From IMG/VR virus record IMGVR_UViG_3300042946_000492, positions 1 to 21,709 of that record: DNA of 21,709 nucleotides. One strand, written 5' to 3'. Shown piece after piece: positions 1 through 15,670 of the stretch (its first letter is position 1; every line of letters begins with the position of its first letter). The notes below the pieces were generated by a model that had not been told where the DNA came from, searched no databases, and saw only the letters and a list, made by a program, of their open reading frames with translations. The translations under genes were made by a program, and so were the position numbers. The DNA comes from a virus.

Positions 1-1265
1 ATAGCACTATTGTTAGCGTAAATTTGGTCAAAATCGATATATGTGTTTTGAACTTGGTTAGTATAAGGGTTTAATTCAGTTTTGAATTTTTTATTACCCG
101 ATGCTCCGTAATTTCCGGTTCCACCACCTCGTCCCCAAGACGCGTATAATACCGTAGATAACGATGTTTTTTCGTTTAATTTGTAATCCCAGTTAATGTT
201 TGAAACGGGTTTGTGGTAAAAATTAACTCTTTCAGATAAAAACTTACCATTCAAATAACCATAGTTATTATTGTAAGTTCTACCAAATCCTAAATAATCC
301 GATATTTTTTTACTAAAGTTTTGATTATGCCATTGAGGTGCTCCTGTAATTAAAAAGTTAAAGTTGTGTTTATCATTTAATTTATAACCTAATGATATAA
401 AATAATTTTGACCCTCACCTTGAGTTCCCTGATTAAATCCGTCTCCTTGCCAATGAGAGAACATTGTTGTAACGGCTAATCCGTTTTTCATTAAACCGGT
501 ACTATATGATGCGGTTGTTTTTAAATAATCATCATTACCAAGTCCGGTTGAAACAAAACCACCTTCTTTTTTATCAATGGTTTTAGTTATAAAGTTAACC
601 GTCCCCCCGACTGAAGATATTGCTAATTTAGATGACCCCAAACCTCTTTGAATTTGAATAGCATTTGCGATGTCACCCATACCTGACCAATTCGACCAAT
701 ACATTTTACCATCTTCCATACCATTAATTGGTTGTCCGTTTAATAAGAATGCTGTATTATCTTGTTGAAATCCTCGAACCGAAATTCTCGAATCACCAAA
801 ACCACCTGATTGACCACCAACATAAATCGATGGTGTGTTAACCATAGTTTGTGTAATGTCATTAGAACCAATTTTAGATTGTATTTCAGCCATTTTGATG
901 GTTGACACTGCGATTGGTGTTTTACGACCTTGTGCAACGTCAATAACCCCTTTTCCAACAACAACAACTTCAGTCAATGAGTTTTCTTCAGGAGTTAATG
1001 AAATAACTTCATTAGTCCCCTTTATTGTATATTGTTTTTTTCCAAAACCTAAATACGATATAGTGATAACGTCATTAGTTTTTGCTGTCTTTAATTCAAA
1101 TTCTCCTTCAAAACCTGTTGTTGTTGATTCTGTTTGAAAATGAATGTGTGCTCCGACCAATGGTTCATTTGTAGATTGGTCAACTACCTTTCCTTTTGTT
1201 TGGGAGAAAGCCCCTAACGAAAATGCTAATGTCATTAGCAATGCTCCGATAATTTTTGTTTTCAT
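1..1265 (-). CDS. TonB-dependent outer-membrane receptor, 3' end outside window
   Basis: About 421 N-terminal residues are visible; the C-terminal barrel lies beyond the window edge. Order: signal peptide (residues 1-21, ending GAFSQ), a carboxypeptidase-regulatory-like beta-sandwich (about 23-95; GKVVDQSTNEPLVGAHI, then SYLGFGKK), a TonB-box-like EVVVVG (99-104), and a plug domain (about 115-230) with ISVRGFQQDN, FLLNGQPING and SSVGGTVNFITKT. Aromatic-rich beta-barrel strands follow. This layout is standard for Bacteroidetes TonB-dependent transporters, which import siderophores, vitamins, peptides or glycans through the outer membrane using TonB energy; the substrate cannot be told here. 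The start is ATG at 1265, followed by MKTKIIGALL. It is odd beside T4-like capsid genes. The upstream octamer at 1388-1395 is the one that precedes the phage genes, so I infer it belongs to the phage, although a host flank or a chimeric assembly is not excluded. The reading frame is intact throughout. Confidence 0.93.
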   Translation of the reverse strand, partial: MKTKIIGALLMTLAFSLGAFSQTKGKVVDQSTNEPLVGAHIHFQTESTTTGFEGEFELKTAKTNDVITISYLGFGKKQYTIKGTNEVISLTPEENSLTEVVVVGKGVIDVAQGRKTPIAVSTIKMAEIQSKIGSNDITQTMVNTPSIYVGGQSGGFGDSRISVRGFQQDNTAFLLNGQPINGMEDGKMYWSNWSGMGDIANAIQIQRGLGSSKLAISSVGGTVNFITKTIDKKEGGFVSTGLGNDDYLKTTASYSTGLMKNGLAVTTMFSHWQGDGFNQGTQGEGQNYFISLGYKLNDKHNFNFLITGAPQWHNQNFSKKISDYLGFGRTYNNNYGYLNGKFLSERVNFYHKPVSNINWDYKLNEKTSLSTVLYASWGRGGGTGNYGASGNKKFKTELNPYTNQVQNTYIDFDQIYANNSA

Positions 1266-1287
1266 TTAATGTTAATTTTGGTTTATA

Positions 1288-1322
1288 ATAAAAAAGTCCC
1301 GAAGACAACTTGCCGTCGAGAC
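1288..1322 (-). terminator. Terminator-like hairpin in the leader of the TonB receptor gene
   Basis: In minus-strand sense, GTCTCGACGGC (1322-1312) pairs with GTCTTCGGGAC (1306-1296) across an AAGTT loop. There is one mismatch and two G-T pairs, and a run of T follows (1295-1291). No minus-strand gene ends just upstream, so it is not the 3' end of an adjacent gene. It lies between the putative promoter octamer (1388-1395) and the receptor start (1265), where it could act as an attenuator or insulator. Confidence 0.6.
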
Positions 1323-1387
1323 CCTTGTTATTTTTAATTTAATAAATAATTATTCAAATAGTTCATATAACTTTTTTTAATACCCTG

Positions 1388-1395
1388 ATAAATAT
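1388..1395 (-). promoter_or_regulatory. Recurrent ATATTTAT octamer upstream of TonB receptor gene
   Basis: Exact copy of the octamer shared by the window's minus-strand units (gene-sense context TTTATATTTATCAGG). It lies 122 nt before the receptor ATG, the longest such distance here, with a terminator-like hairpin between. Confidence 0.5.
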
Positions 1396-1495: not shown

Positions 1496-1933
1496 ATGAT
1501 AAAATATATCAAAAGAAACTTAAAACGTAGAGCAGTTAGAAAAAAATTATTACAAATAAAAAATTTGTATGACATTGTAGACCCGGGAAAATTAGCCGAC
1601 ATCAACGATTGTATGTTCATTTTTCGTAATACATTGAAACACCCGAACTCAATTTACGAAATCGCACCATTATCTTCTCACAAAATCATTGAAAATAAAA
1701 AGTTGGGAGTATTTGTCATTTTAGATAATAAAAAAATTACAATTATCAACCACGTTTGTTATTATAGTAATATTCCAATGACTGACAGAGATTGGAATAA
1801 AATGATTACTATGTTCAACCATAGAGTTCAGGAAAATCGTATGAAAAGGATTGACCAAATGAAATCTCAAGTTGAATACTCTCTTTCAAAATTAAAGAAT
1901 AGAATGTTACAAAAAATAAAACCCCAAGTTTAA
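1496..1933 (+). CDS. Unknown basic 145-aa protein
   Basis: I do not recognise this protein. I chose ATG at 1496 (MIKYIKRNLKRR) because it lies just downstream of a perfect host-type promoter; an in-frame TTG at 1421 would precede that promoter. The N-terminus is strongly basic (KRNLKRRAVRKK). A hydrophobic beta-rich centre follows (VFVILDNKKITIINHVCYY), then a charged helical C-terminus. No signal peptide or membrane segment is evident. It is on the plus strand, opposite to the capsid cassette and divergent from the TonB receptor gene, and it converges with the gene at 1930-2616, overlapping it by four bases. The promoter type suggests expression by host polymerase, perhaps early in infection, which is an inference. 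The basic N-terminus could bind nucleic acid, but no known domain supports that. Confidence 0.75.
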   Translation: MIKYIKRNLKRRAVRKKLLQIKNLYDIVDPGKLADINDCMFIFRNTLKHPNSIYEIAPLSSHKIIENKKLGVFVILDNKKITIINHVCYYSNIPMTDRDWNKMITMFNHRVQENRMKRIDQMKSQVEYSLSKLKNRMLQKIKPQV

Positions 1934-1949
1934 GTTTGGGGTTTTTTTA
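1918..1949. terminator. Bidirectional terminator between convergent genes
   Basis: AAAACCCCAA (1918-1927) pairs with TTGGGGTTTT (1936-1945), giving a hairpin with a T run on the plus strand (1942-1948) and an A/T-rich tail on the minus strand. It overlaps the stop codons of both convergent genes (1933 plus, 1930 minus) and can serve both. Confidence 0.85.
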
Positions 1950-2616
1950 TTTCTTCTTGTAAAACATTTTTTATTAACTCACGTATTGATTCTTTTCTTG
2001 GTTTGTAACTTGTCATTGTGGGTTTATTACCTTTTCCGGTTTTTGGATTTTTCTTTTCCTCTCTCCTTTTTTGACTACATGCCGATTTTTTCTCGGAATC
2101 ACTCATTTTACCAGCAACCCCTGCCGCTCGACATTTTGGGTATCCTTTTGAATCCGCGTCCGGTCTTCCACATGGTGGGTGTTTACCATCCACTTTTCTA
2201 CATATATTAACCCATGGGCCTTTAGGTTGTTTCGACCCCTTTGGTTTTTTCTTTGTTCCAAACCAAACCGCCAAGTCTTCCTTCAATAATTCTTCTTTTA
2301 AGGGTAAACCACTCATAGTTGGATTAACCGCAGAACCTTCTTCATCATTTTGACCTTGGTAACTTTGTTTTTGTTTCATTAAAATTTTGGATATTTTTTT
2401 TGTTTTAAGTTCAATTTCTTTCCTTTTTTGAGGAGTTTCTTTGAAATCTCCATCGGCTTCTTCATACGCCAATTCAGCATTTGAATAATGATAAACGTTA
2501 TCAGTAAACGGACCTAATTGTTTTTCGTCCCAAATTTGGGGTGCCAAGACAATTGGGGTTTTAAACGACCCTGAATTTCCGGAACCCGTGACTTCACTTA
2601 TATAATTCTTTCTCAT
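1930..2616 (-). CDS. Cys/Lys-rich phage protein, DUF5872-like (tentative)
   Basis: A 228-aa protein starting MRKNYISEVTGSGNSGSF. The central-to-C-terminal part (about 118-190) is the recognisable piece: VWFGTKKKPKGSKQPKGPW, then cysteines in CRKVDGKHPPCGRP, YPKCRAAG and KKSACSQKRREEK. Four regularly spaced Cys in a very Lys-rich stretch suggest a metal-binding or DNA/RNA-contacting module. From memory this resembles DUF5872, a domain of phages and environmental viruses without known function; the family name is unverified. The last 20 residues (ESIRELIKNVLQEEI) form an amphipathic helix. An exact copy of the recurrent octamer lies 15 nt upstream of the ATG, in a 37-bp gap shared with the divergent gene at 2654. 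Probably a structural or DNA-associated phage protein, but this is inference. Confidence 0.75.
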   Translation of the reverse strand: MRKNYISEVTGSGNSGSFKTPIVLAPQIWDEKQLGPFTDNVYHYSNAELAYEEADGDFKETPQKRKEIELKTKKISKILMKQKQSYQGQNDEEGSAVNPTMSGLPLKEELLKEDLAVWFGTKKKPKGSKQPKGPWVNICRKVDGKHPPCGRPDADSKGYPKCRAAGVAGKMSDSEKKSACSQKRREEKKNPKTGKGNKPTMTSYKPRKESIRELIKNVLQEEIKKPQT

Positions 2617-4033: not shown

Positions 4034-4354
4034 ATGAAAAAATTATTAGTTTTATCGTTAATGTTATTTAGTGTATTATCTTTTTCACAAGAAAAGAAAA
4101 CCCCGACTATGACAAGAGCCGAGGTTAAAGTTTTTTTCGATTCATTACACAAACGAAATGAAAGAATATTTGATAAAGGTGTTAATACCCATTTTGATTC
4201 AATCTCCAAAATATATAAGGAAAAGATTGTTAGTTATGGGTGGTCCGAAAATGGTGAAGGGTATGTCGTATTTGACATTTCCTACATTAAAAACGGAAAA
4301 TTAACAACAAAAGTTTTGAAAAAAATTAAGGTTGTTGAGGGCAAACTCCCTTAA
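4034..4354 (+). CDS. Small exported protein with signal peptide (106 aa)
   Basis: The N-terminus MKKLLVLSLMLFSVLSFSQE is a textbook signal peptide with a two-Lys n-region, a hydrophobic core and likely cleavage near SFSQ, the style common in Flavobacteriia. There is no lipobox Cys, so the mature protein of about 86 residues should be periplasmic or exported. The mature part is charged, helical at first (AEVKVFFDSLHKRNERIF), then beta-rich (GYVVFDISYIKNGKLTTKVL). No family recognised. It is on the plus strand under a perfect host-type promoter and its 3' end overlaps the convergent OmpA-like gene by 29 bases. In a phage, a small early exported protein could act in superinfection exclusion or envelope modification; that is inference from location only. 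It could also be a captured host gene. Confidence 0.85.
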   Translation: MKKLLVLSLMLFSVLSFSQEKKTPTMTRAEVKVFFDSLHKRNERIFDKGVNTHFDSISKIYKEKIVSYGWSENGEGYVVFDISYIKNGKLTTKVLKKIKVVEGKLP

Positions 4355-5417
4355 CAGTATAACCCGTTTTTCCTAATGGTGACATAACAACTAATCGAGT
4401 ATCTTGTTGGGAGGCGTTAACCTCAATAGAAACGTCTCCTTGACTTACTTCATAAATAACAAATGTTGTAACACCTTGTTTTAGTAATCGTTCTAATAAC
4501 CTCATACCTTGATACACTTCACTACCCATAGGTTTAAAACTTTCAACACTTGGAATAACTGATGGGTCAACAAGCAATTGTTTCAATAAATCCTTAACAT
4601 TATCTGCTTGAATTGTTATTATTTTACTTCCTGACACAGCAGGTGTTCCATTTAATCTTGTTAAACCTGCAACATATTCCGGTACATATTTGAATTGAGT
4701 GTATTTATGAGGTCTAGTGGTCACATATCCGGTGTCTTTTACTATTTGATTTTTTGAGTTGTAAATAACCATCCTATCCGGAATACTTTCACTATTCAAA
4801 GTAATAGTACCAAAATCAATTAGTTTTCTATCTGTTGTAATATAATTATTCGATGCAAGTCCTTGTTTACCCGGTTTATCAATATTTAATCTACAAATAC
4901 TATCATTCCCACCTGTTATTTTTGGTTGTGGATTTTTTTGAGCCGATAAACTTAACTTAACAAATTGATTATTTGTATAATCAGGGTGATTACTACCTTT
5001 AGTTGTATCCCATTCAGGACCTTGCGGACCTAAATCATTAATCTGAACGTTAACCGTTCCACCTAATTTACCTTTAATATATTTTTCAACTTCCGCAGCA
5101 CGTTTTTTCGATAAATCTCCAACCTGCATCCCAACACCTCTATTAGGTACTTTAGATTCTGAGGAATTAATAACAATTGTATCAAAATTACCTTCACCTG
5201 ATTTTAATAAAGATTGTATTTGACTTATCGCATTATCTATTTCCGAGGTGTCCGAAATATTAAATTTTCCACTTGGGAATGACTTACTAATATTAAATGA
5301 AATTTTATTAGGGTCTGTTACCTCATTAAGGATATAATGCCTTTTTGTGGCATTTTCGTGAAGACTCAAAATTCTTTTTCTTTCATCTTCATTTATTGTC
5401 CAAGACTGTCTTATCAT
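4326..5417 (-). CDS. OmpA-like-domain protein, probable virion or envelope protein
   Basis: A 363-aa protein starting MIRQSWTINEDERKRILSLH. Residues about 40-155 resemble an OmpA C-terminal (peptidoglycan-associating) fold: FPSGKFNISDTSEIDNAISQ, a beta strand FDTIVINSSES, the diagnostic-looking helix DLSKKRAAEVEKYIKGKL, and a terminal strand NNQFVKLSLSA. The C-terminal 200 residues are beta-rich and end with a Val/Gly-rich segment containing one Cys; they match nothing I know. No signal peptide is visible, so this is less likely to be a host OmpA-family outer-membrane protein. A phage virion or tail component that touches peptidoglycan is my preferred reading. The N-terminal INEDERKRILSLHE segment resembles short N-terminal tags I recall from other environmental phage proteins; I could not check this. 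It is preceded by an octamer copy 17 nt from the ATG. Confidence 0.65.
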   Translation of the reverse strand: MIRQSWTINEDERKRILSLHENATKRHYILNEVTDPNKISFNISKSFPSGKFNISDTSEIDNAISQIQSLLKSGEGNFDTIVINSSESKVPNRGVGMQVGDLSKKRAAEVEKYIKGKLGGTVNVQINDLGPQGPEWDTTKGSNHPDYTNNQFVKLSLSAQKNPQPKITGGNDSICRLNIDKPGKQGLASNNYITTDRKLIDFGTITLNSESIPDRMVIYNSKNQIVKDTGYVTTRPHKYTQFKYVPEYVAGLTRLNGTPAVSGSKIITIQADNVKDLLKQLLVDPSVIPSVESFKPMGSEVYQGMRLLERLLKQGVTTFVIYEVSQGDVSIEVNASQQDTRLVVMSPLGKTGYTVKGVCPQQP

Positions 5418-5450: not shown

Positions 5451-6137
5451 TTATAATAATTTATTCGACTTACGAATATTCTCCTCACCCCACATTGGTT
5501 GAAGGTTGTCTAATGACCAACATTTCATAAATTCCTCGTCACCCATCTCTTGTATGTCAAACGATGTAATTGGTAGTTTATGGTCTACATGCCAAATTCC
5601 GTAGTTATCCCAAGTCATATCATCTTTGAATTGTTTCTCCAAATGATTAATCAATTCCTCAGGACTATATTGTAGAACGTCAAAGTAGGATTTATTCTTT
5701 TCTACATTATTCTCCTTTAATACTTGATAGATTGCCGTTCTGAAATTTGTAACAAGTTTGTATAATGGGTCTGAGTCTTTACGATTTTTTTCATAATCAC
5801 GTTTGGTTTTTCTCCACTTATCAACATTTTCAGTCCTCCATTTTTTATGGTATTCTGTTAAATATTCTCTATTATTTTCAGACCATTTTTTGTGGTTTTT
5901 CTTTAGACGTTCTTTAACCTCAGGTTTAGAAAAATATTTTTTTGTGGCAACTTCTCTACCACCAATATTTCTTCTACCGGAAGATTTCATAGTAATACCA
6001 TTTTCTTTTAATATTCTTAAAACAGTCGGTTTACTAATTCCCATCTTTTCTGAGATAGTATGAGAACCTAAAAGGTCTTCATTATACATTTTAAGTATCT
6101 TATCTAACTCTTCTTGCGTTGGTATAAATTTTTTCAT
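5451..6137 (-). CDS. HTH-HNH free-standing (homing-type) endonuclease
   Basis: A 228-aa protein. Residues about 24-50 form a helix-turn-helix (HTISEKMGISKPTVLRILKE) like those of resolvases and some homing enzymes. Residues 75-125 hold repeated basic aromatic segments (KKWSENNREYLTEYHKKWR and similar). The C-terminus is an HNH/beta-beta-alpha-metal nuclease: WHVDHKLPITSF with Asp185-His186, then LDNLQPMWGEENIRKSNK with Asn211, Asn220 and Asn225 as likely metal or fold residues. Such enzymes cut DNA and are mobile in phage genomes, often next to conserved genes. It lies directly downstream of the capsid gene, beyond a terminator, with its own octamer 5 nt from the ATG. The frame is intact and key residues are present, so it is probably active. 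Whether it targets the allele of the neighbouring capsid gene is unknown. Confidence 0.88.
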   Translation of the reverse strand: MKKFIPTQEELDKILKMYNEDLLGSHTISEKMGISKPTVLRILKENGITMKSSGRRNIGGREVATKKYFSKPEVKERLKKNHKKWSENNREYLTEYHKKWRTENVDKWRKTKRDYEKNRKDSDPLYKLVTNFRTAIYQVLKENNVEKNKSYFDVLQYSPEELINHLEKQFKDDMTWDNYGIWHVDHKLPITSFDIQEMGDEEFMKCWSLDNLQPMWGEENIRKSNKLL

Positions 6138-6241: not shown

Positions 6242-8032
6242 TTATCTCAATTCTCTTAAATCGAATGTTCTAACACCATCAACAGTAATTCGTCCGTAAA
6301 AACGGTTGTTCACCATTTTTTTCGCGTATCTTGTCATAATCCCTTTAATTGGTGTGAAATTAAATGGGTTATACATTGTTGGAGTTAATTGTAATGGTAC
6401 GTATGGTGCGTAGATGTAACCTGTGTCTAACAATGATGTTCCTTTGTGTCCCATTAACACTTGGTTTGGTGGGAAGTAAGGGTCACGGTAAACTTGGTAA
6501 CGTCCCGCCAATGTTCCAACTCTTTCAATACCCATGTTGTATTGGTCTTGCTCAGGAGAAGCGTTTGATACGTGGAAGTATTCTAAATCGTCAAAGATAG
6601 CAGAGATTTCAGAAGAAACAACAATCCAGTTCGCTCCACCTCTTAAAGTTGATTTGTGGATTTGAGCCGAGATTTGGTTAATCGCTGTGATAAGAGTTTG
6701 GTTCCAGTCTTTTTGAGTGTAAGGAACTGCTGAAGACCCTAAACGTTTCCAACCATTGTAATCCCAACGTAAGTTCCATGCTGCACCTTTACGTAAATCT
6801 CTTAAGATTTCACGGTCAATTTCAGCCGCAACTTGTTCAGATAATAAAGCTGTTAATTCAGCCTCAGCATCAATGTTATGGAATGCTGCAACGTCTTGAG
6901 CCATCTCAGGAGACCATTGTGCTCTTAATTTTCTTTCTGTAACTGATACAGTAACTGACATTAAGTCAAAAGAAACCTCACCAATTCTATCTTCAAACTC
7001 TAAGTTTTTGTAGATTTTATAAGTCGCTGTAAATGCGTTACTTGTTGCAGTACTTGAAGAGAAAGTCGAACCTGTGTAACCATCCATAGAACCTCCACAA
7101 GTGATACATACAGGTACTTGTAAGTCAACCTCTAAATAGATTTTACCTTCTGCGTCACATACGTTGTCATATTGACCACCACCTGTTTTACTTCCAGGGA
7201 AAGTTAATGTTGCGTTATTGTTACCATACTCAACAATACCTTTACCATATCTTTGAGTTACAACTCTAAATAAGTAAGGGTTAGTTGCATTAGCACTTGT
7301 TGTCGTATTACCTGCAACACCATAAACTGTTAAATCAGATAAGAATGACTCATTATCCATTGGTTGACCATCAGGACCAATTAATTTACCAGCACCATCA
7401 GATGCAAAACCTGACATAACGATTAATACTTTTCTATAATCAGATAATGTATAAGCCGAAGGTACTAATGAATCACCAACCCATGCAACTGTAACAACAG
7501 GTGCTGTGATTGCTGAGAATTGACCTTTTGAATAATCATATAAACCTGGTGGGTCTAAAGCTGGTTCGTTACCTTCATAGAATCTATCGTAAAGGTCTTT
7601 TGTGTTGTTATAGTCATAACCTGAGTTTGGTGTTTGGTCATTCGCAGCATTTGGAGAACCGTAAGGAGCCCAGTGCTGATTTTGAGCGTTTTCATATGAC
7701 TGAATGTTTGGTACAAAGTAGAATAATTTACCGATTGGTAAGTTCATAGCTTGTACAGAAACGATATCGTTTGATAATAATTTAGAGAAAACTCTTCTTA
7801 CGATAGGGAAAACCACTGTTTCAAATGCACCTGTATCAGATGTAGTTGACGCTTCGTTAATTAAGAACGATGCTTGGTTTTCATATAATTGTGCAACGTT
7901 TTCTTTCATGTGACCTTTAAGTCCCTCTAAGAAACCTAATTTGTCCCATTTGTTAATTGTATCTTCTTTGATAACTTTTAAATGTTTTAATCCGATGTTA
8001 CCAACAAGACCTGATTCTAATAATGCTCCCAT
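6242..8032 (-). CDS. 23: Major capsid protein, T4 gp23-like
   Basis: A 596-aa protein that forms the hexameric head shell. Signatures shared with gp23: INKWDKLGFLEGLKGH then ENQASFLINEASTT near the N-terminus, VRRVFSKLLSNDIVSVQAM, the helix SPEMAQDVAAFHNIDAEAEL followed by VAAEIDREIL, and near the C-terminus YIYAPYVPLQL and PIKGIMTRYAKK. T4 gp23 has 521 residues and is cut after Glu65 by gp21. Here LINE-ASTT at residues 57-64 fits the I/L-x-E rule, so maturation after Glu60 is likely. The protein is about 75 residues longer than gp23; the extra length is mostly in the middle, including a Cys pair (CITC) and Ser/Thr-rich strands. It follows the core gene by 39 bp with no terminator or octamer between, so they are probably co-transcribed. 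ATG at 8032 begins MGALLESGLVG. Confidence 0.97.
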   Translation of the reverse strand: MGALLESGLVGNIGLKHLKVIKEDTINKWDKLGFLEGLKGHMKENVAQLYENQASFLINEASTTSDTGAFETVVFPIVRRVFSKLLSNDIVSVQAMNLPIGKLFYFVPNIQSYENAQNQHWAPYGSPNAANDQTPNSGYDYNNTKDLYDRFYEGNEPALDPPGLYDYSKGQFSAITAPVVTVAWVGDSLVPSAYTLSDYRKVLIVMSGFASDGAGKLIGPDGQPMDNESFLSDLTVYGVAGNTTTSANATNPYLFRVVTQRYGKGIVEYGNNNATLTFPGSKTGGGQYDNVCDAEGKIYLEVDLQVPVCITCGGSMDGYTGSTFSSSTATSNAFTATYKIYKNLEFEDRIGEVSFDLMSVTVSVTERKLRAQWSPEMAQDVAAFHNIDAEAELTALLSEQVAAEIDREILRDLRKGAAWNLRWDYNGWKRLGSSAVPYTQKDWNQTLITAINQISAQIHKSTLRGGANWIVVSSEISAIFDDLEYFHVSNASPEQDQYNMGIERVGTLAGRYQVYRDPYFPPNQVLMGHKGTSLLDTGYIYAPYVPLQLTPTMYNPFNFTPIKGIMTRYAKKMVNNRFYGRITVDGVRTFDLRELR

Positions 8033-9969: not shown

Positions 9970-10686
9970 TTATTTTCCTAAAAAATCGTTTAATTTTTTC
10001 ATTAAGTCAACCGACTTTTCAACATATTCGTCTTTTTGTTTATATTTTTTTTCTTCATCTAAGTTTTCCTCATATTTATCTCTATCATCCGCGTTAGTAA
10101 ATAAGTAAGCTCCCGGAGTTGATGGAGATGATACCAAGTCAAAACATATCAATTCAAAATCATCTTGAACTTCATTTCTTTCCCCCACTTTTTTTAATGA
10201 CCCAACTCCTCGAGAAGAAATACCTAAAGTAACTCCTTGTCTCATTAAATTAGCCGCTTGGTCCCCTTTGGTTGAGACAATTCCTCTTTCGTGGAAACCT
10301 GGTGAAGTTAGTAATTTAAGTTTACCCATTAAGATGTTTCTATCCCACCATATATCTGTAATGATATGTGATACACGGTCTAAATCAATTAAAGAGGATT
10401 CGGGATGATTTAACTCAGAAGTTGACAACCCTTTTTCAATCGCTCTTTTATAATTGTCAGCCTCTCTTTTTAAAATTCTTTCCGGATACGTTCTTCCATT
10501 TCGATTTGGAGTGTCATACTTTTGAAGTACCGCATAAAACTCAAATGGATTTCTATAATCCATTTCTTTAGCCTCTCTTAAAACTTTTTCATTATGTTTG
10601 TCTTTAGGTGATACCCACCCGGCATCGGCTTCAACTAATATACCATGTCCGGTTTCACTTGCTTCTAATATTCTTAATTGTTTCAT
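9970..10686 (-). CDS. 21: Prohead maturation protease, T4 gp21-like
   Basis: A 238-aa serine protease of the herpesvirus-assemblin-like T4 gp21 group (T4 gp21: 212 aa), which degrades the core and trims the capsid protein during head maturation. Features: YDTPNRNGRTYPERIL (57-72), SELNHPESS with likely catalytic His94, a strand region DIWWDRNILMGKLKLL, GVTLGISSRG with likely nucleophile Ser157 or Ser158, and FDLVSSPSTPGAYLF closing the fold (about 182-196). The last 35 residues are a charged helical tail, a possible self-cleavage region. The ATG at 10686 is preceded by an octamer copy (14 nt) and followed at 8 nt by the DUF4494-like gene. Its place between portal and capsid genes matches T4. 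Confidence 0.95.
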   Translation of the reverse strand: MKQLRILEASETGHGILVEADAGWVSPKDKHNEKVLREAKEMDYRNPFEFYAVLQKYDTPNRNGRTYPERILKREADNYKRAIEKGLSTSELNHPESSLIDLDRVSHIITDIWWDRNILMGKLKLLTSPGFHERGIVSTKGDQAANLMRQGVTLGISSRGVGSLKKVGERNEVQDDFELICFDLVSSPSTPGAYLFTNADDRDKYEENLDEEKKYKQKDEYVEKSVDLMKKLNDFLGK

Positions 10687-12012: not shown

Positions 12013-12020
12013 ATAAATAT
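12013..12020 (-). promoter_or_regulatory. Recurrent octamer abutting the portal stop codon
   Basis: Exact copy, 17 nt before the ATG at 11995. In gene sense the portal stop codon TAA runs straight into it (GTAATATTTAT), the same construction as at 20716-20723. Confidence 0.5.
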
Positions 12021-13870
12021 TACGAATTTAGTAACTTATTCAATTCTTTTGAAATTTCTCCCAAAGATTCTTGTCCATGGTTTAAATTTATTATTTCTTT
12101 ACCCTCAATTAAATTGTTTTCAACCAATATATTTAAATTATTAAACCTTGATTCCGGAGTAATTTCTGCTTCCCCACCAGGTGATGGCGGAGCAACAGTT
12201 TCTTCTCCTGCCGGTGGTAATTCACTACCTAAATCAGAGGTTTCAATCCCACCACCTCCAAATGACGGAGTTGGTTCTGAGGTTTCCGTTGATGCGGTTG
12301 TTGCAGTACCTCCTGATGAATTACCATAAAGTTTATCAATATTGTCAAATAAACCTGTTTTAGTAATAACGGTAGGAGTCGCTTTAAGTTCTTCACCAAC
12401 CGCTCTTTCAATTCTTTGTTGTTGTAAATCCAAACGAACTTCTTCATCTGACCAACCAAAAATATGTTTTTTAGCCCAAGTTGATGATGTTGCTTGAATA
12501 CCATTTCCGGGGTCTGAAACTAAATCTTTATATAATAAAACTTTCTCTTTCCAAACATCAATCTTCAATAAATCTGCTTGAGTTGACGGATTAGATAATC
12601 CTAATGTAAAGTTTTCTAATTCATCTTCAAACCCTAATAAAAACAAATGTACTATGGCAATTTTATTCAATTCTGCCAACATACTTTTTTGAATTCTATT
12701 TATTGTTCTAGCAAAACGAATGTCCTGTAATGATAAGTTTTTTCCATCACCAACAACTTCTTCAAAACCTAAAAACGCTTTCGGAACACGAAGTGCCGTT
12801 AATAATTTCTTTTGGATATATTCAATATCGGCAATTTCTGATAAGTTTGTTGCTCCCGGTAATGTAGTAATAGGGTCAGGGGCCGAAGGGTCTCTAACTG
12901 GTATGAAGTAATCTTGGTCAACCGCCATTTGATTAAATCTCATATCGACATTACCTGTCTTGTTGTCAACTACTTGTTCTCTTTTGAATTTATTGGCGAC
13001 TCTTTGTACGTACGCTTCAACATCGTCATCATTCATGTTACCAACGAATACTTTAAACATTCTTCTTTCAGGTGCTCTAGATGTTCGATAAATTAACATG
13101 GCATCCTCAGACAATAATAATTGTTTCCAAATACGTCTTGCCTTTTCTAACATAGAAGTACCATAAGGAAGTTTTCTGTCATCACCTAATAATCTAAAGT
13201 GAGCAATTTCCCATGATTGGAATTCCATATTTTTGTTCTTCCAAGTAAAATGTAGAGACTTTTTGTCTTTATCCAATTCTTTTGTAATATCCGTAGAAAT
13301 TTTAGCACTAACGCCAACCTCATGTCTTTCGATTTCAATTGTTGGTAATTGTTGACAACCAACAATACCTTTTTCCGGGTCTAATTTCATATAAACAAAA
13401 TTATCCCCATACTTACAAGTATTTCGTGTCCACATTGGTAAGTTAGTGTTAATATCGAGGGCGTTATTAAATAAATCTGCTAATACTCCCTTTATTCTTT
13501 TTGATTCCGAATAAATTTGTAAAATAAAACCATCTTCATTTGTTGTTGTCGATTCTTCCGCGTAAATGTCTAAAGCGGCGGATATCTCCGGAGTATACTC
13601 CATACTTTCGTAATCATATTGTGCCGATAATCTTGACGGTTCATAATATATTGCTTGGGAATATAAATTATTCTCAACTTTTGCCCATTGATTTGTTAAA
13701 TAAAAAGTTTGTTGTGCCTGTAACTTTTCTTTTTCGTATTCTTCTCTACTTTTTGTACGTAGTAATTCCTTTTTATCAAACTTAAATGTTGGATAATCTT
13801 GACCTAATAAGGAATTTGGTCCCAATGTTTGGGATAACCTCTGCCATACCGTTAAATTTTGTTCACTCAT
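12020..13870 (-). CDS. 20: Portal vertex protein, T4 gp20-like
   Basis: A 616-aa protein (T4 gp20: 524) forming the dodecameric ring at the head vertex through which DNA is packaged and to which the tail attaches. Portal-type features: YTPEISAALDIYAEEST (about 92-108), MWTRNTCKYGDNFVYMKLDP, EIAHFRLLGDDRKLPYGTSM leading into the helix LEKARRIWKQLLLSEDAMLI, then RTSRAPERRMFKVFVGNMND and ALRVPKAFLGFEE. The last 100 residues are an extra Gly/Pro/Thr-rich, probably disordered tail (SSGGTATTASTETSEP and onwards) ending in a short helix, which accounts for the added length. It follows the terminase by 39 bp. The start is ATG at 13870 (MSEQNLTVWQRL). Confidence 0.95.
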   Translation of the reverse strand: MSEQNLTVWQRLSQTLGPNSLLGQDYPTFKFDKKELLRTKSREEYEKEKLQAQQTFYLTNQWAKVENNLYSQAIYYEPSRLSAQYDYESMEYTPEISAALDIYAEESTTTNEDGFILQIYSESKRIKGVLADLFNNALDINTNLPMWTRNTCKYGDNFVYMKLDPEKGIVGCQQLPTIEIERHEVGVSAKISTDITKELDKDKKSLHFTWKNKNMEFQSWEIAHFRLLGDDRKLPYGTSMLEKARRIWKQLLLSEDAMLIYRTSRAPERRMFKVFVGNMNDDDVEAYVQRVANKFKREQVVDNKTGNVDMRFNQMAVDQDYFIPVRDPSAPDPITTLPGATNLSEIADIEYIQKKLLTALRVPKAFLGFEEVVGDGKNLSLQDIRFARTINRIQKSMLAELNKIAIVHLFLLGFEDELENFTLGLSNPSTQADLLKIDVWKEKVLLYKDLVSDPGNGIQATSSTWAKKHIFGWSDEEVRLDLQQQRIERAVGEELKATPTVITKTGLFDNIDKLYGNSSGGTATTASTETSEPTPSFGGGGIETSDLGSELPPAGEETVAPPSPGGEAEITPESRFNNLNILVENNLIEGKEIINLNHGQESLGEISKELNKLLNS

Positions 13871-13909: not shown

Positions 13910-15670
13910 TTACGAACCAAATAACCACCCATATTTTTGATAATCATCCCTTGTCGCTCCTTGGTTTATTGGGGTTTGTCTACCCATTTGAGGAACCATT
14001 GGATTAAAGAATTCTGATGCGTTTTTATTCTCATTTACCGCTGTCGACCAAGAGTTTAGCATCGCTCTTGTATGGTTAGTTACTTTTTCTAATGATTGAA
14101 AAGATTTTTCCGCAACATATAACGCCATTGACATACCCATAATACAATCATCATGATGATTTTTTTGATGGTCAGGTCTTCCATTTATATAAACAAATGT
14201 GTTCATTTCATTATATAAACGACTCGAATAAATTCTAAACTTATGTCTCATAGCCTCTTCAAATGCTGCAATAATTTGAACCCTTTTTGAATTAAAATTT
14301 AACCCAGGGATTTTTTCATTTAGTTTTGCATCGTACTTCCATTTGTTAGTAGTGTCAACTCCATCAACGTATAACCCACCTTGATAATTCATTTCTTGCA
14401 TTTTTCTTGCGGTGGAAACACCCATACCTCCGGTAATATCAATTACTCCATAAGCGCTATACATCTGTCCCCACTTATAAGCAATTTCTGCCAAAACATC
14501 CGGAGGAACTTTTCCAACGTATTCTAACACTTGTTCTCGTTCATCAAAATCAATTATTTGAATACACGAAAAATCTTCGGAATCCCCTCGAGAGACATCG
14601 ACACCCATAACATATTTATGACCATTTACCGGTTCTTTGAAAATCCATAAACTACCCCCCATCATTTTTGCTTGAGGTTCTTTAACTTGATTTTTCATAA
14701 TGTCTTGCATCATTTCAGAGTCAAATACATTATCACCGGAACCTAAAAAGTTACACTCTAACTCTTGGGCGACTTTTCGTCTATCGTATTTCAATTTTTT
14801 AACCATACCTTCAAACCAAGCAGAACAAGGTTTATAACCATCTTCAATATATTTGGTTACAACACTATGGTCTCTCTCGTACGGATTTTCCATCGATAAA
14901 TTAATAATTACCTCATTTAGGTCATAATCCTCACGATTTAAAAGAAAGTGTACTAAATCCTTTGTTTTGACCATATAAAGGTCTTTGGTGTAACGAGGGT
15001 CACGATACCAAAACATTTCCGAAATTTTGAAATCATTCATTCTTCTTAACGCTTGGTCGTAAATTTCATAATAAATTGGGTCATACCCGTTTGGTGTGGA
15101 CACCACAATTACTTTACCCCCCGTAGATAACGAAGCCATACATGCTGACCAAAAATCCCCATCTGCCTCAATAAACGCAGCCTCATCAAATATCAGGATG
15201 GTTGGAGTATAACCCCTTAACGCATCCTTTGATGTTGCAACGGCTTTAACCTCACATCCATTTGTTAACTTAAAATGTCTTTGTGAATTTTTTTCATTTG
15301 AAAACCCTACACCGACCCAACTCGGCCATTGTTCGGTAAAGGCTCTAACTTTGTTTGCCATCTCAACGGATGTATCCAATTTGTTGGCAATAATTAGAAT
15401 TTTTTCGGGTTTATTCTTTTTAGCGAATACAAGTCGTTTGGATGCCCAAGCCGCGGTTACAGTAGATACACCTGCCTGTCTATACTTAAGGGCAATATTT
15501 TCATTGTAGTTTTCATAATCCTCGATTAAAGATACTTGGTCGGGGAATAAATCTAACGGAACATATTTTGATACCGTATTATCATATGTCGTTAAATAAG
15601 TACGAAGTGCATAAGGAGTATTCCTCATACACTTCGTTATTTCTATTATAAGTTTTTCTTTACTATTCAA
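13910..15670 (-). CDS. 17: Terminase large subunit, T4 gp17-like, TTG start
   Basis: A 586-aa packaging motor (T4 gp17: 610). ATPase half: LFPDQ (41-45, adenine motif), Walker A RQAGVST (64-70), Walker B TILIFDEAAF (157-166) with Asp162-Glu163, and coupling motif STPNG (191-195). RNase H-like nuclease half: VMGVDVSRGDSEDF, YGVIDITGG and HHDDCIMGM supply the acidic metal ligands. It cuts concatemeric DNA and pumps it into the prohead through the portal encoded next. The start appears to be TTG at 15670: the first ATG in frame, at 15628, would remove EITKCMRN, which aligns with the conserved N-terminal helix of gp17 (EYIKCKRD from memory). A non-ATG start may keep synthesis low. Unlike T4, the sheath and tube genes do not separate it from the portal gene. 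Confidence 0.96.
   Translation of the reverse strand: MNSKEKLIIEITKCMRNTPYALRTYLTTYDNTVSKYVPLDLFPDQVSLIEDYENYNENIALKYRQAGVSTVTAAWASKRLVFAKKNKPEKILIIANKLDTSVEMANKVRAFTEQWPSWVGVGFSNEKNSQRHFKLTNGCEVKAVATSKDALRGYTPTILIFDEAAFIEADGDFWSACMASLSTGGKVIVVSTPNGYDPIYYEIYDQALRRMNDFKISEMFWYRDPRYTKDLYMVKTKDLVHFLLNREDYDLNEVIINLSMENPYERDHSVVTKYIEDGYKPCSAWFEGMVKKLKYDRRKVAQELECNFLGSGDNVFDSEMMQDIMKNQVKEPQAKMMGGSLWIFKEPVNGHKYVMGVDVSRGDSEDFSCIQIIDFDEREQVLEYVGKVPPDVLAEIAYKWGQMYSAYGVIDITGGMGVSTARKMQEMNYQGGLYVDGVDTTNKWKYDAKLNEKIPGLNFNSKRVQIIAAFEEAMRHKFRIYSSRLYNEMNTFVYINGRPDHQKNHHDDCIMGMSMALYVAEKSFQSLEKVTNHTRAMLNSWSTAVNENKNASEFFNPMVPQMGRQTPINQGATRDDYQKYGWLFGS

Follow-up and report, generated by a model that had tools for sequence, protein, structure and literature searches.

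Why does a TonB-dependent receptor (TBDR) gene lie next to the head genes of a T4-like phage, does it belong to the phage, and what would the phage gain from it? The window, i.e. the whole stretch of DNA analysed, is a 21.7-kb IMG/VR record whose base composition shows no abrupt change. At its left end an open frame of 421 amino acids runs out of the record at the edge. An earlier note on this DNA had read the frame as a full receptor N-terminus, and Pfam searches combined with sequence reading bore this out, since signal peptide, regulatory domain, TonB box and plug are all present:

3..1265, minus strand: TBDR, first 421 of 900 residues (open reading frame; Pfam CarbopepD_reg_2 and Plug); the gene goes on to the left of position 1
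1200..1265, minus strand: putative signal peptide, residues 1-22, with the hydrophobic stretch MKTKIIGALLMTLAFSLGAFSQ (sequence reading)
960..1196, minus strand: carboxypeptidase-regulatory-like N-terminal domain, residues 24-102 (Pfam PF13715, CarbopepD_reg_2, E 1.8e-12)
948..980, minus strand: TonB-box-like segment SLTEVVVVGKG, residues 96-106, near-invariant in six intact phage copies (sequence reading)
600..926, minus strand: plug domain, residues 114-222 (Pfam PF07715, E 5e-12)

The remainder of the protein is found in relatives. A protein search retrieved six further IMG/VR records of 10.7-115 kb (L002-L007), which together with the window are referred to as group A, and all six contain an intact receptor of 900 residues. 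L002 showed no difference from the window in those shared genes that were compared, and L003-L007 showed 86-99% identity to it in the receptor part. By sequence reading, the export signal and the TonB box are kept in the six intact copies; the plug was also matched by PF07715 in the L004 receptor (E 2.8e-13). The AlphaFold2 model of the full-length L002 copy (pLDDT 80, pTM 0.77; the signal peptide and parts of the plug are modelled with low confidence) contains about 22 long strands after the plug, which corresponds to a predicted 22-strand outer-membrane barrel; the Pfam barrel model gave no match to the phage receptor in profile searches. Foldseek with this model returned PqqU, FhuA and FecA as the best PDB matches (probability 1.00), along with other TBDRs. 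We therefore regard the window gene as, almost certainly, a phage-borne TBDR.

More specific identities of the receptor were considered. No SusD partner lipoprotein was seen in the gene lists flanking the receptor in group A or in host loci, and the reading as a SusC/SusD glycan importer was dropped for this reason. In Riemerella anatipestifer, the TBDR-like RA0C_RS04915 and the DUF5689 protein RA0C_RS04920 are essential for natural transformation (PMC8459023), and a flavobacterial counterpart pair was matched by annotation. The phage receptor is of the same broad receptor class; however, the putative flavobacterial counterparts of the transformation-type receptor are only 22% identical to it, and no DUF5689 partner was seen among the flanking genes of the phage loci. 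The identity as flavobacterial natural-transformation receptor was rejected on these two grounds.

The genes on the other side of the receptor start are those of a phage head locus, preceded by a small gene of opposite orientation:

1496..1933, plus strand: divergent small gene of unknown function that moves with the receptor cassette (open frame from TTG at 1421; the ATG at 1496 agrees with L003)
1930..2616, minus strand: conserved head-side neighbour in group A phages (79-84% identical in L003, L004, L005 and L007; only a partial match of 34% in L006)
6242..8032, minus strand: major capsid protein gp23 (PF07068, E 3.5e-71)
9970..10686, minus strand: head maturation protease, gp21 (phrog_207, E 1.8e-42)
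12020..13870, minus strand: portal protein gp20 (PF07230, E 4.5e-76)
13910..15670, minus strand: large terminase gp17 (PF03237, E 4e-16)

With gp23, gp20, gp17, the head protease, sheath and tube all of T4 type, the phage is T4-like. The earlier statement that no integrase is present held for all seven group A records, in none of which tyrosine integrase PF00589 was matched; tRNAs, sought as a clue to the host, were not found.

The receptor is truncated by the window edge, and this is the sole point in favour of a host flank or a chimeric assembly, for which host genes or a coverage break beyond the receptor had been named as the decisive sign. The sequence to the left of position 1 was examined via the relatives: the same junction is repeated in six other contigs, and beyond the receptor these have phage genes, not host genes. 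The position of the receptor is constant throughout group A, with gp23 and its neighbours on one side and tail-type genes on the other. In the 115-kb contig about 107 kb of phage sequence follow past the receptor, including PhoH, DNA polymerase, tail sheath and tube, UvsX, ribonucleotide reductase and baseplate wedge genes. In addition, a full-length receptor of the phage type was absent from the bacterial genomes searched, the best match being 76% identical over residues 85-900. A plasmid search gave distant matches only, and a further scan of viral contigs gave no new loci. Since the receptor is enclosed by phage genes in the contigs themselves, the reading as host flank or chimera is refuted, and its probability is practically nil. 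The window receptor is a phage gene.

Two further features of the head locus were observed. Several head-locus proteins share the N-terminal motif MIKQxWNINEDEKNRILNLHExATK (window 4326-5417, minus strand; twice in L004, at 123-1301 and 1797-2969), which, by analogy with the internal proteins of T4, could be a capsid-targeting sequence. A small gene at 4034-4354 (plus strand), with similar genes in L003 and L004, encodes a product with a Flavobacterium-like signal peptide start (MKKLLVLSLMLFSVLSFSQ), and the phage may on this basis export further proteins.

Placement of the receptor in a tree of host receptors, which the earlier note had proposed, pointed to its origin. In a maximum-likelihood tree (quick search, LG+G4) the six phage receptors form one clade nested within Flavobacterium, whose sister is a chromosomal receptor beside pgi. 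The closest cellular relative, the 76% match mentioned above, is likewise chromosomal and has the same pgi synteny. Judged by these relationships, the receptor was captured by a T4-like phage from a Flavobacterium chromosome. The pgi-linked chromosomal TBDR of Flavobacterium (e.g. strain BAL38, L015; G669 contig 94) shows 66-76% identity and the same plug-barrel layout. It differs in its fixed setting of pgi, M23 peptidase and tryptophan dioxygenase, whereas the phage copy is set among T4-like genes, behind a phage-specific leader hairpin, and its N-terminal domain is diverged.

The receptor has also moved between phages. In L006, gp23 shares 72% protein identity and 78% nucleotide identity with that of the window (dS 0.67), and a tail-side protein is merely 58% identical to its L004 counterpart, while the receptor shows 97.9% DNA identity to the window (dS 0.086). 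A sliding comparison of L006 and the window revealed high identity from about 1925 leftwards to near the receptor stop codon and a sharp drop outside. Since the receptor is nearly identical while gp23 and the tail-side flanks diverge sharply, we attribute this pattern to the recent exchange, between distant T4-like phages, of a cassette comprising the receptor, its leader and the divergent small gene. An endonuclease-VII-like gene lies beside gp23 in the window (5451-6137, minus strand) and in L002, and an HNH-like gene, identified by sequence reading, directly follows the receptor in L003 (12752-13270, minus strand). Genes of these types can promote gene exchange between phages, and those near the receptor cassette may promote its exchange.

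Pairwise dN/dS values of the receptor among intact phage copies were 0.04-0.11 at dS 0.36-0.87, which shows purifying selection. The receptor is a candidate auxiliary metabolic gene, host-derived and retained by the phage, with a presumed metabolic effect in infection. The clear origin from a host chromosome would also fit a passively transduced host gene of no benefit to the phage. Such cargo would hardly stay intact and constrained in six sequences across this large synonymous divergence, at an identical genomic position throughout and behind a phage-specific leader, and a second independent capture in at least 75 contigs, described below, argues against it as well; we consider it very improbable. 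The phage-borne TBDR, by contrast, is very probably functional, and we infer that it transports.

Conservation was also compared region by region. The phage plug is 82-86% identical to the nearest Flavobacterium plugs, i.e. at the level found between hosts, and in the barrel, for strands and remaining regions alike, phage and host copies differ by amounts within or close to those found among hosts. Among phages, barrel regions outside the strands show the same conservation as the strands themselves. Distinctly greater divergence from the host copies is confined to the N-terminal regulatory domain. These data bear on a role in superinfection control, in which the phage receptor would replace, titrate or mask the host copy and so block adsorption of competing phages or toxins. 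TBDRs commonly serve as phage receptors, and phage T5 offers a precedent for control of a TBDR during infection, as proposed here: its Llp blocks the host TBDR FhuA, and PDB 8a60 was among the structural matches. Llp, however, is a small lipoprotein, whereas the window phage itself encodes a TBDR. The earlier suggestion of receptor masking or replacement fares poorly, as the phage plug differs from host plugs by no more than these differ among themselves, and the divergence of the non-strand barrel does not exceed that seen among hosts. Neither a TonB box nor an intact plug would be required in a decoy, and dN/dS gave no indication of diversification, though pairwise averages could miss diversification at a few sites. 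Superinfection control is thus an improbable, if conceivable, function.

If the receptor serves the phage, it should be under phage control, and its upstream region has the following features:

1388..1395, minus strand: octamer ATATTTAT, a promoter-like phage motif 123 nt upstream of the receptor ATG; the aligned upstream regions share a conserved TTATAYTTATM
1287..1332, minus strand: conserved leader hairpin with a T-run in its 3' arm, terminator- or attenuator-like, about 21 nt before the receptor start codon
1921..1948, no strand assigned: terminator-like hairpin with a T-run, near one boundary of the exchanged cassette (sequence reading)

An octamer typical of the phage had been noted upstream of the receptor, and ATATTTAT is indeed enriched: the window holds 14 copies against 4.3 expected, a number reached in none of 100 shuffles. 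Eleven of the 14 have the orientation of the head genes (minus strand), and most of these lie a short way ahead of a phage gene. The copy at the receptor lies 123 nt from the ATG; for most others the distance is 5-25 nt. Between this octamer and the start codon sits the leader hairpin, conserved in all seven aligned phage leaders, with a fold of −17.6 kcal/mol (z −4.3) and 95.7% of its pairs kept. Covariation is slight: most pairs are invariant, and a single pair has changes in both of its bases. An RNA structure is therefore suggested by conservation and stability more than by covariation. The 21-nt core was found in group A phage loci only. The resemblance of the hairpin to a terminator makes attenuation, a short RNA or insulation from read-through possible functions. 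No Rfam family came near its gathering score in the region upstream of the receptor, and the reading of the leader as a riboswitch or other known RNA was dropped accordingly.

Which substrate would such a receptor import? The genes beside its cellular relatives offer several clues. In most Flavobacterium, pgi, an M23 peptidase and tryptophan dioxygenase constantly accompany the receptor gene, with pgi the commonest neighbour; this setting gives no hint of nucleic acids. An S1/P1 nuclease is present in one of six host Flavobacterium genomes. Relatives lie beside a nucleotide phosphodiesterase lipoprotein (PF01663) in four genomes and, in Bacteroidales, beside a DNA/RNA endonuclease and a DUF5689-like lipoprotein. 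In many Flavobacteriaceae the relative is near an Exo_endo_phos_3 enzyme and a TBDR-DUF5689 pair, the latter, similar to the Riemerella transformation pair, being one or two genes away in about 25 chromosomal loci (among L015-L094). Other relatives adjoin a peptide transporter, a zinc carboxypeptidase (M14) or a WD40/DPPIV-type protein. Two records labelled "UNVERIFIED: Bacteriophage sp." (MT837128 and MT837399; L011 and L012) gave the best full-length matches and may represent a nucleic-acid utilisation locus; as phage receptors they were set aside, their neighbours resembling a Bacteroidales chromosome.

A second set of viral receptors was reached through an alignment with the Bacteroidales relatives. 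It comprises at least 75 further viral contigs (group B), with receptors 36-39% identical over their length. These make up a single clade, separate from every cellular sequence sampled, in a tree whose cellular sequences were picked by similarity to group A and thus leave out the cellular relatives 60-73% identical to group B. Groups A and B are separate captures of the receptor family. Two group B records (252,603 and 113,339 bp) contain gp23; it was unmatched in the others tested, mostly fragments, many of which have genes for DNA polymerase B and of sliding-clamp and clamp-loader type.

In at least 15 of the 75 group B contigs an S1/P1 nuclease (PF02265, E 1.5e-59) is encoded downstream of the receptor, mostly adjoining it and in some a gene or two away. 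Viral contigs with this arrangement are as follows:

L167, L133, L127/L225, L128, L131/L227, L224, L226, L228-L230, L232-L234, L095, L099, L096 and L108: receptor with a downstream S1/P1 nuclease of secreted type

The reverse search took the nuclease as its starting point: of 15 contigs long enough to show it, 14 encode the receptor upstream, no further than about 4 kb away. The contigs being related, this shows linkage and not 14 independent events. L235 had no receptor within 8 kb, and L231 is cut. About 60 of the 75 contigs have no adjacent nuclease, some owing to their shortness. Genes for IMP dehydrogenase and ribonucleotide reductase also occur near group B receptors. The nuclease link is that of group B, since no S1/P1 nuclease was found in the group A records, the 115-kb and 59-kb contigs included.

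Because nucleic-acid enzymes recur beside the receptor family in several unrelated contexts, we favour a nucleic-acid-derived substrate, with somewhat less than even confidence. The clue comes from neighbouring genes, for the window's own phages only indirectly, and the assignment is a reasoned guess, given that group A has no nuclease, that pgi is the commonest neighbour and that some relatives stand beside peptide-related genes.

Phage-borne TBDRs as such have precedents. A putative TBDR ("SusC") was named in the marine megaphage Mar_Mega_1 and in LR745206 and proposed to raise uptake (PMC9723777). These resemble the window phage in that a large phage carries a TBDR; neither a T4 type nor a nuclease link was reported for them. 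In LR745206.1 (634,780 bp; L014:4875-8391) the TBDR is followed by PnuC (TIGR01528, above cut-off) and a NadR-like enzyme, which by gene content would form an operon for import and salvage of nicotinamide riboside. This TBDR of 660 aa is about 32% identical to the window receptor over part of the plug and has no regulatory-domain match. Among the public Lak megaphage records, which carry no annotation, Prevotella phage Lak-C1 encodes a 689-aa TBDR with plug and barrel (L013:4851-6920). The claim that no described phage has such a gene must be narrowed in the light of Mar_Mega_1, LR745206 and the Lak megaphages; it stands for cultured T4-like phages, in which none was found. The cultured 160-kb Flavobacterium phage vB_FspM_immuto, whose gp23 places it among the nearest cultured relatives (43% identity across 56% of the query), gave no TBDR match in its genome. 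In the literature covered, with few subscription papers and preprints, neither a T4-like phage with a TBDR nor the exchange of one between such phages was found described, and the same holds for a TBDR-nuclease module of a phage. Apparently new are the TBDR in T4-like phages, its exchange between them and the receptor-nuclease link, whereas phage-borne TBDRs were already known in megaphages.

The different TBDR of LR745206, with its PnuC and NadR, indicates that phages acquire TBDRs for other nutrients too. A functional phage TBDR could accordingly import something else, such as a peptide, metal, vitamin or sugar derivative, and the nuclease link of group B would then be a separate specialisation. 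Several kinds of small-molecule TBDR fit the fold equally well, and the host neighbours pgi and M23 peptidase, as well as the peptide transporter, M14 peptidase or DPPIV-like protein beside some relatives, agree with this. However, no single alternative substrate is recurrently supported, whereas nucleic-acid enzymes recur near the family. We regard import of another substrate as a serious possibility, on balance doubtful.

For the reading we prefer, import of nucleic-acid-derived material, the following course can be proposed. The receptor would be expressed during infection, probably from the ATATTTAT-type promoter, and its transcript would pass through the leader with the terminator-like hairpin. 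The host would export the protein, which would insert into the outer membrane, and host TonB would power it; uptake of the receptor's natural substrate by the dying cell would thereby increase. The likeliest substrates would be DNA fragments, oligonucleotides, nucleotides or nucleosides, which could also be a source of phosphate, and the imported material would feed phage DNA synthesis. The links of this chain differ in strength. That the phage receptor raises uptake of some nutrient we consider likely, and a virus of Flavobacterium-type bacteria probably alters the uptake of the infected cell; the earlier proposal of altered host nutrient uptake during infection is plausible on the sequence data. 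The whole chain, a captured working TBDR made in infection and raising uptake of nucleic-acid-derived nutrients, is tentative, with a probability not quite reaching one half. More doubtful still is the broader proposal that T4-like phages of Bacteroidota captured this receptor family at least twice in order to harvest extracellular nucleic acid, for example from lysed neighbours, for their genomes, one lineage having added an S1/P1 nuclease and nucleotide enzymes.

The finding gives a substrate lead for a widespread and conserved Flavobacterium receptor for which no assigned function was found. The linkage of receptor and nuclease in group B leads to a concrete and testable proposal, in which nucleic acid from the environment serves as food for some phages. 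Phage metabolic genes known so far mostly act in the cell interior or at the inner membrane. If the proposed role is true, a phage-made outer-membrane importer would let the virus alter external uptake late in infection.
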